From: Paracoccaceae bacterium
GTDB lineage: Bacteria > Pseudomonadota > Alphaproteobacteria > Rhodobacterales > Rhodobacteraceae
Direction of reading: 5' to 3'
Assembly: GCA_022824005.1 (NCBI GenBank)
Contig: JAJEBG010000023.1
Span: 62,001-126,000 of the forward strand
Length of the DNA stretch: 64,000 nucleotides
A program made the position numbers and the translations under genes. Shown piece after piece: positions 4,390 to 31,163 of this stretch. The notes beneath the pieces are model-generated. The model saw only the letters and a list, made by a program, of their open reading frames with translations. It did not search any database and was not told the DNA's origin. Each line of letters starts with the position of its first letter. Position 1 is the stretch's first letter.

Positions 4390-5811
4390 ATGAACGGGTC
4401 GACCGTCACCACAAGGTTTGCGCCTTCCCCCACGGGAAAACTTCACATCGGCGGCGCGAGGACAGCGCTGTTTAACTGGTTGTTTGCCCGCGCCCACAAG
4501 GGTCAATTTTATTTGCGCATCGAAGACACTGACCACGAAAGGTCAACGTCAATAGCCGTGACGGCCATTGTCGAAGGGCTCGAATGGTTAGGCGTTGACT
4601 GGGATGGAGAGCTCCTCTTTCAACGTGATCGCCGCCACCGCCATCTTGAATGCGTGGACAAATTGCTCGCCAGTGGCGGAGCGTATAAATGTTTTTGTAC
4701 CCCCGAAGACATCGAAAGGTTGAACCACCAAGCCAAAGGAAGCCCAACCCGCTTCACGAGTCCATGGCGAGACTCTCCGAGATCACACCATCCAGACCGT
4801 CCCTTCTGTGTACGTCTGAAAATGCCTCAAAGTGGCACAACCCAGATTGATGATGTCGTGCATGGCCGAGGGCGGTGGGACAATTCTCTATTTGATGATT
4901 GGGTGATCCTAAGAACATCCGGCACTCCCACCTACAATTTTGCCGTTGTCGTCGATGACCATGACATGGCGATCTCGCATGTGATTCGTGGCGATGACCA
5001 TCTCATCAACACGGCCAAACAAGTTCATGTCTACCGCGCCCTCGGGTGGGCTTTGCCTATCTTTGCCCATGTGCCTCTCATCCTTGACGAGAATGGCAAG
5101 AAATTATCAAAACGGACCGCATCCGTGGGGATGGAGACCTATATCAATGAGGGTATTCCCGCCGTTGCTATGCGCAACTATCTCGCCCGCCTCGGTTGGA
5201 GTCACGGCAATGATGAATTCTTTACGACTGAACAAGCCATCGCTTGGTTTGATCTTAATGGTCTAAGAAAATCAGCGGCGCGGCTTGACGCAAAAAAACT
5301 GGCGCATCTCTCGAAAAAACATCTCTCAGCCTACCGAGATGAATCGCAACTGCTCGACGAGCTGAATCAATTTAGGCAATGGCACGGAGAGGCCCCCATC
5401 AAACCTGAATACCAAACACAGGTTTTGGCGGCGCTCGCTATTCTCAAATCCCGTTGCAAGTCTCTTTTGGATCTTCAAGCGGGTATTGCCTTTATTGGGG
5501 CTGAGCGGCCTCTCACTCTTGACGAAAAAGCGGCGGAACAATTGGATGATCGCGGTCGGGCTTATCTCAAGAAATTAAACGAGGATTTAGCCAAAATCGA
5601 TTGGAGCCGGCATGAAATCGAAAAGACTATGAAAAATCGACAAGTCTCTGAATCGATCCGCTTTGAGGATTTGGCTCGACCTCTGCGTGCGGCATTGACA
5701 GGTCGAGCTGCATCGATGGGAGTGCTTGATGTTATGGTGATTTTGGGCGCAAAGGAAACATTGGGACGGATCGGTGAGGCGATAGAAGGTCATTTTAAGA
5801 CCGTGCCCTGA
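4390..5811 (+). CDS. gltX: Glutamyl-tRNA synthetase
   Basis: GltX is a class I aminoacyl-tRNA synthetase that charges tRNA(Glu), and in many alphaproteobacteria also tRNA(Gln) as the substrate for GatCAB. The 473-residue product has the first signature as HIGG (residues 19-22, in FAPSPTGKLHIGG) and the second as KLSKR (238-242). A GGGGAAGG ribosome site precedes the ATG. It lies 19 bases after lexA and 184 bases before gltA, on the same strand. A shorter paralogue, gluQ, is present at about 46.4 kb. Confidence 0.97.
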   Translation: MNGSTVTTRFAPSPTGKLHIGGARTALFNWLFARAHKGQFYLRIEDTDHERSTSIAVTAIVEGLEWLGVDWDGELLFQRDRRHRHLECVDKLLASGGAYKCFCTPEDIERLNHQAKGSPTRFTSPWRDSPRSHHPDRPFCVRLKMPQSGTTQIDDVVHGRGRWDNSLFDDWVILRTSGTPTYNFAVVVDDHDMAISHVIRGDDHLINTAKQVHVYRALGWALPIFAHVPLILDENGKKLSKRTASVGMETYINEGIPAVAMRNYLARLGWSHGNDEFFTTEQAIAWFDLNGLRKSAARLDAKKLAHLSKKHLSAYRDESQLLDELNQFRQWHGEAPIKPEYQTQVLAALAILKSRCKSLLDLQAGIAFIGAERPLTLDEKAAEQLDDRGRAYLKKLNEDLAKIDWSRHEIEKTMKNRQVSESIRFEDLARPLRAALTGRAASMGVLDVMVILGAKETLGRIGEAIEGHFKTVP

Positions 5812-23560: not shown

Positions 23561-24391
23561 ATGAAACCACAGTCATCTGATACAGCGGGCCGTATTGCTG
23601 GTCTGCTCGAAATTATGCGGCAATTGCGTGATCCCCAGACCGGCTGTCCTTGGGATATCAAACAAGATTTCCATTCAATCGCGCCTTGCACACTTGAGGA
23701 AGCTTATGAAGTGGTGGACGCGATTGATCGTCAAGATTGGAATGAACTCAAGCTCGAGCTCGGCGATCTTCTTTTGCAAACCGTTTATCATTGCCAAATC
23801 GCTTGTGAAATGAATCTCTTTTCATTCAACGATGTCGTCAATGCCATTTGCCAAAAGATGATTCGCCGCCATCCGCATGTCTTTGGATCGGAAGCGAGAC
23901 CCTCTGTCTCGCAGCAAATAGAAAATTGGGAACAAGCAAAAGCCCACGAACGGCAAGCCAATTCAGACCCCTCGGCTCCCGCAGGAATGCTTGATGGAGT
24001 TGCCCTTTCGTTGCCCGCGCTGACACGTGCCATCAAACTCCAAAAACGCGCCGCAAAGGTGAAGTTTGATTGGACTTCATTGCCGGATGTCATTGGCAAA
24101 GTGTCGGAAGAGTTGAATGAAATGGCGAATGAGATTGAGGCCGGCGATCGCGCAAAGATATTTGAAGAATTTGGTGACCTGCTATTCTCACTGGTCAACT
24201 TTGCCCGTCACGCAGACATCGATGCAGAAGCGGCTCTTCGATTGGCCAACAACAAGTTTGTCAAACGATTCGCCATGATGGAAAGAGAGATGTCGAAAGA
24301 TGGACTTTCATCTAGCGACGTCGATACTGGCACGTTGGAGCGATATTGGGAGCGGTCAAAAAATCTCCTTGGTAAGGCTGATTCTGCCTGA
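23561..24391 (+). CDS. mazG: Nucleoside triphosphate pyrophosphohydrolase MazG
   Basis: MazG hydrolyses NTPs to NMP and pyrophosphate, acting in nucleotide housekeeping. The 276-residue product contains two MazG domains. The first has GCPWDIKQ and metal-binding EEAYEVVDAI plus ELGDLLLQTVYH; the second has EELNEMANEIE plus EEFGDLLFSLVNF, ending in NNKFVKRF. The length matches the tandem-domain form. It stands alone between miaA and the iron-binding protein gene. Confidence 0.96.
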   Translation: MKPQSSDTAGRIAGLLEIMRQLRDPQTGCPWDIKQDFHSIAPCTLEEAYEVVDAIDRQDWNELKLELGDLLLQTVYHCQIACEMNLFSFNDVVNAICQKMIRRHPHVFGSEARPSVSQQIENWEQAKAHERQANSDPSAPAGMLDGVALSLPALTRAIKLQKRAAKVKFDWTSLPDVIGKVSEELNEMANEIEAGDRAKIFEEFGDLLFSLVNFARHADIDAEAALRLANNKFVKRFAMMEREMSKDGLSSSDVDTGTLERYWERSKNLLGKADSA

Positions 24392-24488
24392 TTGCCGCCT
24401 AAACTTCTGCTCGTTTTAAGTTTTAGCGACTTTTTGCAAATAAAATGACCATCCATGCAATAAGTCGGTTGCAATCGACCTGTTTGCC

Positions 24489-24517
24489 TTATACCTGACT
24501 ATATTAGTCAAGTATAA
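24489..24517 (+). promoter_or_regulatory. 29-base palindrome with TGA-N9-TCA core, likely iron-responsive operator
   Basis: Left arm TTATACCTGACTA (24489-24501), spacer TAT, right arm TAGTCAAGTATAA (24505-24517). The arms pair at 12 of 13 positions. The core is TGA (24496-24498), nine bases, TCA (24508-24510), the form of the iron-responsive operator bound by RirA in rhizobia and relatives. It ends 15 bases before the ATG of the iron(III)-binding protein gene, just before its AAGGAT ribosome site, a place suited to repression. Binding by a RirA/IscR-type protein is inferred. Confidence 0.7.
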
Positions 24518-24532
24518 AGAAGGATCAATTAA

Positions 24533-25549
24533 ATGACTAAAAGTTCAATATTGTGGGGGATGGTTTTTGCGCTCTTAGCGACGTCACCCCTCTACGCCGA
24601 TGGCCATGAGGTAAATGTCTACTCTTACCGCCAGCCGGAACTTGTGAAACCGCTCTTTGACGCGTTTACGCAAGAAACGGGTATTGAAGTCAATGTGGCC
24701 TTTCTAAACAAAGGCATGATTGAACGATTAGAAGCTGAGGGAGACCGATCACCGGCCGATCTCGTAATGACGGTCGATATTTCTAGATTGCAAGCGCTCG
24801 TCGATGCCAGCGCGACTCAACCCGTCAAGTCGAAAATCTTAGAAGAGGCGATCGCCCCAGAATTTCGGTCACCCGATGGTTCGTGGTACGCGCTCACACT
24901 TCGTGCTCGTGTGGTTTATGCCTCAAAGGAGCGGGTTCCTGATGGCGAAGTCACCACTTACGAGGATTTGGCGGATGCCAAATGGAAGGGTCGTATCTGC
25001 ACTCGTTCCGGAACCCATCCCTACAATCTAGCTCTATTTTCAGCGGTCATCGCCCGTTACGGTGAAGAAGTCGCGACGGACTGGTTGACGGGGGTTCGGG
25101 ACAATCTGGCCCGTAAACCTCAAGGTAATGATCGCGCCCAGGTGAAAGCCGTATGGGCGGGAGAATGCGATATTTCCCTTGGCAATACCTATTATATGGG
25201 AAAAATGCTTGAGGATGATGAGCAACAGCAATGGGCCAATTCAGTGCGAATCATCTTTCCCAGGTTCGTTGATGGCGGCACACATATGAATGTTTCAGGT
25301 GTGGCGATGACAAAAGCGGCACCAAATAAAGAAAATGCGCTCCGATTAATGGAGTTTTTGGCCTCCCCCCAAGCGCAACAGATTTATGCTGAAATCAACT
25401 ACGAATATCCTGTTGACCCTTCAGTTCCGCGATCTGAATTGGTGGCAAGTTGGGGTTCTCCCAAGGCCGACTCGGTGAGTTTATCAGAAATTTCTGCATT
25501 GCGTCCGACGGCGCTCAAACTCGTTCAAGAAGTCGATTATGATCGTTGA
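24533..25549 (+). CDS. futA: Periplasmic iron(III)-binding protein of an ABC transporter (FutA/FbpA type)
   Basis: Family members capture ferric iron in the periplasm for an ABC importer. The 338-residue product has a Sec signal peptide (ILWGMVFALLATSPLYADG) and matches the FutA/IdiA pattern: EVNVYSYRQPELVKPLFDAF, ICTRSGTHPYNLALFSA, DISLGNTYYMGKML with the paired tyrosines that bind iron, and MNVSGVAMTKAAPNKENALRLMEFL. No permease or ATPase genes are adjacent, so it depends on partners elsewhere. A strong palindrome sits just upstream and a hairpin follows the gene. Confidence 0.92.
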   Translation: MTKSSILWGMVFALLATSPLYADGHEVNVYSYRQPELVKPLFDAFTQETGIEVNVAFLNKGMIERLEAEGDRSPADLVMTVDISRLQALVDASATQPVKSKILEEAIAPEFRSPDGSWYALTLRARVVYASKERVPDGEVTTYEDLADAKWKGRICTRSGTHPYNLALFSAVIARYGEEVATDWLTGVRDNLARKPQGNDRAQVKAVWAGECDISLGNTYYMGKMLEDDEQQQWANSVRIIFPRFVDGGTHMNVSGVAMTKAAPNKENALRLMEFLASPQAQQIYAEINYEYPVDPSVPRSELVASWGSPKADSVSLSEISALRPTALKLVQEVDYDR

Positions 25550-25590
25550 GTGATTGATGGCTATGTTAGCCATCCACGACAGATAATGAC

Positions 25591-25628
25591 CGCGACCGAT
25601 TGGCGACTTAAAATGTCAATCGGTCGCG
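25591..25628. terminator. Perfect 12-bp hairpin after the iron-binding protein gene
   Basis: CGCGACCGATTG (25591-25602) pairs exactly with CAATCGGTCGCG (25617-25628) across a 14-base loop. It lies 42 bases after the stop. No T-run follows on the plus strand, so it is not a classical intrinsic terminator; an mRNA 3'-end stabiliser is an alternative. The rest of the 248-base gap to the next gene holds nothing recognisable. Confidence 0.5.
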
Positions 25629-25797
25629 CCCCATGGCGCAAGACGACCCCCATCAAAGACGACGACTCATCCCGAGGCTTGCATCAAGAACCCACTCATG
25701 GCAATAATTTCTGTCGCGGTGAGTCCCCTGACGGCAATATCGCCCGAGCGTTTATTTAACCCGCCCGCCAAAACTGCATTTTCAACAGGCCGGTCTG

Positions 25798-26733
25798 ATG
25801 GCACAGAAAATCATTATTGACACGGATCCAGGCCAAGACGACGCGGTCGCCATACTCGTGGCTCTGGCAAGCGAAGAACTTGATGTGATCGGCATCACCG
25901 CTGTCGCGGGTAATGTGCCCCTCTCCCTGACTGAAGTCAATGCGCGGAAGATTTGTGAATTGGTGAAAAGGCCCGATATACGCGTCTTTGCCGGCTGCGA
26001 TCGCCCCATGCGACGCCCTTTAGTGACGGCAGAAAATGTCCACGGCAAGACGGGGCTTGATGGGCCCCGTTTACCGCCGCCGACAATGACTCTACAATCC
26101 CTGCACGCGGTTGATTTTATTGTTCAATCATTGCTTGAGCACGACGCGCAATCCCTCACCTTATGTGCCCTCGGGCCGCTGACAAATATTGCCCAAGCGA
26201 TGGACCAAGAGCCCAGAATTATCCCCAGAATTCAGCAAATTATCCTGATGGGCGGTGCCAATTTTGAACGTGGCAATGTGACACCTGCGGCCGAGTTCAA
26301 TATTTACGTGGACCCGCATGCTGCTGATATCGTGTTCTCTAGCGGCGCTTCGGTGACCGTCATGCCCTTGGATGTGACACACCAAGCCCTGACCTCGCCC
26401 GAGCGAATCCAAGCCTTTCGAACAATTGGCAACCGCGCCGGGTCTGTGGTGGCGGATTGGGCGTCATTTTTTGAAAGATTTGATACCGCCAAATACGGGA
26501 TGGAAGGCGCTCCCCTCCATGACCCTTGCGTCATCGCCTATCTTCTGGAACCCAGTTTATTTGCCGGCAAACAAGTCAATGTTGAGATTGAGACCGAATC
26601 AAACTTAACCATGGGTTTCACGGTCGTCGATTGGTGGAATGTCACAAAACGAAAAGCCAATGCGATGTTTATTAATAAGGTAGATGCACCGAGATATTTT
26701 GATCTCATTACCCAACATGTGGCCAAATTATGA
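25798..26733 (+). CDS. Ribonucleoside hydrolase (IunH family)
   Basis: Enzymes of this family split nucleosides into base and ribose for salvage. The 311-residue product has the N-terminal calcium-binding DTDPGQDDA near residue 8, AVAGNVPL, LGPLTNIAQA, IILMGGANFERGNVTPAAEFN and LHDPCVIAYLL. The substrate preference (purine, pyrimidine or inosine/uridine) cannot be told by reading. The stop overlaps the selO start as ATGA, so the two are translationally coupled. Confidence 0.93.
   Translation: MAQKIIIDTDPGQDDAVAILVALASEELDVIGITAVAGNVPLSLTEVNARKICELVKRPDIRVFAGCDRPMRRPLVTAENVHGKTGLDGPRLPPPTMTLQSLHAVDFIVQSLLEHDAQSLTLCALGPLTNIAQAMDQEPRIIPRIQQIILMGGANFERGNVTPAAEFNIYVDPHAADIVFSSGASVTVMPLDVTHQALTSPERIQAFRTIGNRAGSVVADWASFFERFDTAKYGMEGAPLHDPCVIAYLLEPSLFAGKQVNVEIETESNLTMGFTVVDWWNVTKRKANAMFINKVDAPRYFDLITQHVAKL

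Positions 26734-28379: not shown

Positions 28380-31163
<2,784 letters not shown>

Follow-up and report, generated by a model that had tools for sequence, protein, structure and literature searches.

A putative Iron-Rhodo-box operator for IscR upstream of the ferric-iron-binding protein gene fbpA in a Paracoccaceae bacterium

A 29-bp near-perfect palindrome stands directly in front of fbpA, a gene for a periplasmic ferric-iron-binding protein, in the genome of a Paracoccaceae bacterium. Here we report that it is very probably an operator of the Iron-Rhodo-box kind, at which IscR would bind and repress fbpA in response to iron, as judged by analogy with Rhodobacter sphaeroides. To go by its sequence, the palindrome is most likely a genuine operator that belongs to a known type and not to a new one; its assignment to the Iron-Rhodo-box is based on size, place and regulator and not on a comparison of letters with the published consensus. 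The stretch of 64,000 nucleotides that was analysed, called the window here, belongs to a genome of 2.26 Mb that is 97% complete and consists of 62 contigs. The features around the palindrome are as follows.

24489-24517, no strand: 29-bp near-perfect palindrome (12/13 arm positions), centre at 24503
24491-24515, no strand: predicted Iron-Rhodo-box operator of 25 bp (ATACCTGACTATATTAGTCAAGTAT), based on a held-out matrix and conservation
24520-24524, plus strand: ribosome-binding site AAGGA, found at the corresponding position of the nearest relative too
24533-25549, plus strand: fbpA/futA-type gene for a periplasmic ferric-iron-binding protein of 338 aa with a signal peptide (Pfam SBP_bac families)

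The palindrome, TTATACCTGACTATATTAGTCAAGTATAA, is built of 13-base arms around a 3-base centre; the pairing of 12 of the 13 arm positions and the TGA-N9-TCA core inside it agree with the original prediction. Its end is followed after 15 bp by the ATG of fbpA, with AAGGA in between, and the centre of the box is 30 bp ahead of the start codon. As a bare sequence feature, a palindrome like this is not very surprising in 64 kb. In first-order Markov simulations of 64 kb, a 12/13 palindrome of exactly this geometry turned up in 13 of 200 (mean 0.065), and one with any loop of 0 to 12 bases in 91 of 200, while the 64-kb window contains 29 occurrences of the bare TGA-N9-TCA pattern. The significance of the site therefore comes from its conservation.

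The product of fbpA matches the iron-binding protein FbpA in PDB entry 1q35 (E=1e-98, residues 25-337), so the earlier claim also held in that the palindrome immediately precedes the ribosome site of a gene whose product binds iron(III). The FutA-like structure 2pt1, which we take to be a FutA-type iron transport protein, was matched as well in the PDB comparison, and the protein belongs to the FbpA/FutA group, since its whole mature length is homologous to ferric-binding proteins of solved structure. The gene upstream of fbpA is presumably mazG-like, and a nucleoside hydrolase gene lies downstream. Between fbpA and the latter there is a second long inverted repeat (25591-25628, arms GCGACCGATTG and onward, 12/13), which is not followed by a T-run. 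Every close homologue of the protein, in 80 named loci, is from a record of Rhodobacteraceae or of similar alphaproteobacteria, and these relatives put the genome in the Rhodobacteraceae. The nearest named relative (L064, 78% identity) is a Rhodobacteraceae MAG, in which the gene order is that of the window: a mazG-like gene, fbpA, the nucleoside hydrolase gene and the next large gene.

In total, 101 upstream regions were scanned, 21 of them from same-family genomes (the window's own included) and 80 from the named loci; two were duplicates, leaving 99 unique regions. Nine of the 30 loci in one set (L040-L048), at most 55% identical and in seven cases from other families, were kept out of the 101. 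A palindrome of the same kind was found in all 101 regions, with the consensus ATACCTGACTAAATTAGTCAGGTAT. An iteratively trained symmetric matrix gave a site above 10 bits in 101/101 regions, in 0/101 reversed regions and in 0/101 coding stretches. Because the training set of this matrix was also the set that it scored, which made the result circular in that sense, a held-out matrix was trained without the window and without both copies of the nearest relative. Under the held-out matrix the window site scored 27.5 bits, the top score in the window, and the box of the nearest relative 21.6 bits. The window's second-best operator-like site (5401-5425) reached 12.4 bits, a score of which about 0.3 sites are expected by chance. 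When the matrix was trained on 49 regions and applied to the other 49, a site above 15 bits was found in 48/49, compared with 0/49 reversed upstream regions and 0/49 coding stretches. What counts against the pattern is that two of 98 relatives, one of them (L021) of the same genus, have weak sites only, at about 10 bits under the held-out matrix. By chance, 64 kb should hold about 0.8 palindromes of 12/13 with a loop of at most 12 bases, which would suit a chance origin, but conservation before homologous genes and a held-out score expected only 0.0002 times in the 2.26 Mb genome (6e-6 per 64 kb) rule this reading out and leave it a practically negligible probability.

The relatives also show how the box is placed with respect to the promoter. 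In 63/98 unique relatives there is a pair of boxes, at a centre-to-centre distance of exactly 25 bp, while the window has one box. Each of the 63 has ATTGA between the twin boxes, where it belongs to a -35-like element, TTGACC, and a -10-like TTTAAG starts 10 bp past the centre of the downstream box. The twin boxes lie about 50-130 bp before the gene, for example in L073, L083 and L132. Since ATTGA precedes the downstream box and TTTAAG follows it, this box takes up the interval from the -35 to the -10, which is where one would look for a repressor that acts by blocking RNA polymerase; by sequence pattern, overlap or adjacency of box and promoter is clear in these 63 of the 98. The twin-box arrangement is mentioned neither in the accessible part of PMC4618611 nor in the wider literature that was searched; as Rodionov 2006 lay outside the scope of that search, we claim no novelty for it.

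A promoter scan of 24380-25800 listed no plus-strand promoter before fbpA. Two candidate -10 elements can be named for the window.

24513-24518, plus strand: TATAAA, candidate -10, at +10 from the box centre, the place of the relatives' TTTAAG in a gene-oriented profile of the 63 promoters
24500-24505, plus strand: TATATT, second candidate -10, at the centre of the box, with a possible -35 TCGACC at 24475-24480 and a spacer of 19

TATAAA is called a candidate because it would give a leader of about 8 nt, and the real -10 of fbpA may be TATATT in the box centre. The promoter pattern bears on whether the repeat works instead as RNA, as a hairpin in the mRNA leader or a terminator. A near-perfect inverted repeat that adjoins a ribosome site would suit such a role, but the stem is A/T-rich and has no U-run, the terminator scan lists only another, weak structure at 24467-24480, and in the relatives the box falls between the -35 and -10-like elements and hence mostly upstream of transcription. 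We consider this explanation extremely unlikely.

The length of the arms had led the original prediction to propose a different or additional regulator. In the window, the right outer arm (TATAAA) lies at the place of the relatives' -10 and the left one at the place of their -35, so no further regulator is needed. The long arms fit the 25-bp box consensus together with the A/T-rich flanks that appear to hold promoter elements in the relatives. Among the 101 best sites, 12/13 palindromic positions are found only in the window and L083, and all five outer pairs only in the window; the nearest relative keeps the left arm TTATAC and not the right. A gene for a Fur-family regulator is located at 28380-28802, 3.8 kb downstream, and is assigned to no subfamily by the NCBIfam cut-offs. 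Its nearness, together with arms longer than the core, could speak for a site of a Fur-family protein (Fur, Mur or Irr), for example the product of this gene, or for arms that bind one besides IscR. This is highly improbable: the best match is 9/19 to the Fur consensus and 9/14 to the Irr ICE motif, the bases conserved in relatives are CCTGA/TCAGG at a spacing right for an Rrf2 site, and conservation of the outer bases of the arms is incomplete, with changes in the right arm already in the nearest relative.

One Rrf2-family protein is detectable in the 97% complete genome. Its gene adjoins genes for a cysteine desulfurase, sufB and sufS. The Cys3His site, which holds the cluster in IscR of the E. 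coli type, is absent from the protein, and close to the C-terminus there is a PCPAV motif, like that in the IscR of R. sphaeroides; PCPA is present in 29/30 aligned family members, the remaining one having PCQA. With an Rrf2 domain, suf neighbours, PCPAV and no Cys3His site, it is of the Rhodobacteraceae IscR type. Two points count against this assignment: the NCBIfam IscR model (TIGR02010) gives 140.8 bits against a curated cut-off of 207.55, and the protein has a second cysteine, 14 residues before the one in PCPAV. Its best structural relative is 7zpn, for which the literature search returned no relevant paper.

RirA, whose operator was the model for the original prediction, does not hold up as the regulator, and a RirA (IRO box) operator is very unlikely here. 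The site does contain TGA-N9-TCA, the accessible part of PMC4618611 notes a resemblance between the Iron-Rhodo-box and the RirA box, and at least one family member, Dinoroseobacter shibae, has RirA beside IscR according to the available part of PMC8007024, so that RirA is possible in the family, though it was not found in this genome. Against RirA, the only Rrf2 protein detected scores 46 bits with the RirA model, whose cut-off is 193, and its best structural relative shares the PCPAV. The window site and the IRO box of Rhizobiales have in common, as far as the available text of PMC5863699 describes the latter, the TGA-N9-TCA core and, as predicted for the window site, a regulator of the Rrf2 family and iron repression by a cluster-loaded protein; they differ in that no RirA was found in the window's genome.

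The closest known system is thus the Iron-Rhodo-box, the operator of a single-cysteine IscR in Rhodobacteraceae such as R. sphaeroides (Rodionov 2006, cited and tested in PMC4618611, of which part was accessible). As in that system, a palindromic signal of similar size, in keeping with the signal of about 19 bp common to iron uptake genes of Rhodobacteraceae, precedes an iron uptake gene in a member of this family, and the IscR regulator type is present in the genome; the box overlaps or adjoins the promoter by sequence pattern in the 63 relatives and may do so in the window. In contrast to the published signal of 19 bp, the window palindrome runs to 29 bp; the window also has a single box where most relatives have two, the box is near the start codon, and none stands before iscR. 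The accessible sections of PMC4618611 report that IscR of R. sphaeroides represses genes with an Iron-Rhodo-box and binds such promoters, and that afuA (RSP_2913) is up by log2 1.93 without IscR. Iron-rhodo boxes before ferric ABC transporters of roseobacters are described in the available part of PMC4771312. Like the window's fbpA, afuA encodes a periplasmic binding protein of an iron ABC transporter behind an Iron-Rhodo-box, derepressed in R. sphaeroides without IscR (PMC4618611, accessible part), and the two genes are likened by kind and predicted regulation, not by orthology.

The following scheme takes IscR binding, the switch by the cluster and the direction of control from R. sphaeroides. 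With sufficient iron, an Fe-S-loaded dimer of the Rhodobacteraceae-type IscR, with its single cluster-ligating cysteine, would bind the box and block RNA polymerase at the presumably overlapping fbpA promoter. When iron or clusters run short, IscR would release the box and the ferric-iron-binding protein would be made.

The genome was also searched for other sites of this kind, a scan that had been proposed with the original prediction. The three best sites found are that of the window (27.5 bits), one on contig C35 near 748 (22.7 bits) and one on contig C15 near 31070 (22.4 bits); the weaker ones that were inspected are mostly intragenic. The latter two strong sites are intergenic, each ahead of a similar truncated gene.

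402-758 of L146 (genome G000, contig C35): truncated gene, putatively for a binding protein, with a strong box in front
3061-3403 of L147 (genome G000, contig C15): truncated gene, putatively for a binding protein, with a strong box in front

The two are probable remnants of genes for iron-type periplasmic binding proteins of the Peripla_BP_2 type. As neither remnant has a Pfam or NCBIfam match of its own, the identification rests on their mutual similarity (65% over 50 residues) and on the resemblance between the remnant on C35 and a protein of genome G037 that belongs to Peripla_BP_2 (38% over 47 residues, E=1e-4). The pair suggests a duplicated, decayed gene; the stretches ahead of the two remnants look alike. 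With the three best sites before binding-protein genes or remnants, an iron-linked operator with iron repression, as originally proposed, is the likely function.

Strict patterns did not serve to find further sites: TGACTNNNNNAGTCA with at most one mismatch gave 52 sites in the genome compared with 57 for the reversed pattern, and ACYTGACTNNNNNAGTCARGT with at most three mismatches gave 32 compared with 25 in the control, counts so close to the controls that true sites cannot be told from background by patterns alone. With a looser pattern there were 43 places in the forward and 44 in the reverse direction, against 14 and 27. Scored candidates comprised 26 of the 32 ACYTGACTNNNNNAGTCARGT sites (six were dropped by eye, and the genes around seven were inspected) and 31 places of the looser pattern, picked by eye. 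The sites on C49, C12, C59 and C33 are inside genes, that on C38 scores 15.9 (25 bases) and is inside a gene as well, and that on C41 lies ahead of a Fic-like gene and has 7.5 bits; the other inspected candidates were below 16 bits and, C41 excepted, inside genes. A sequence-only profile of 39 boxes, each on both strands, with which 150 of 907 candidates were scored, found only the window site and that on C35; it missed C15, so the census of sites in the genome is incomplete. No box was found before iscR itself (best score -2.8 bits), although the IscR of R. sphaeroides binds its own promoter. A box was also absent from the genome's only strong FecCD system and from the gene for an FbpB-like permease, and no TonB-receptor plug domain was found in the genome.

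5994-7652 of L257 (genome G000, contig C61): putatively FbpB-like protein of 552 residues, its single reading frame covering two BPD_transp_1 domains

This protein is probably the ferric permease partner of the fbpA product, encoded at a place unlinked to fbpA.

As a more speculative and rather unlikely extension, the iron regulon of IscR may have shrunk in this small genome to about one intact target, fbpA, the ancestral pair of boxes having become a single longer and more symmetric operator by the start codon, and the other two strong sites standing before decayed genes. If this were true, a single dimer on the more symmetric site would match the tight repression that takes two dimers in the relatives. 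For the palindrome itself, the analysis makes IscR, and not RirA, the candidate regulator, and the long arms call for no new one. For the family, it gives a comparative picture of the Rhodobacteraceae fbpA promoter, usually with two boxes 25 bp apart and the -35 between them, an arrangement that leads to a prediction about cooperative binding.
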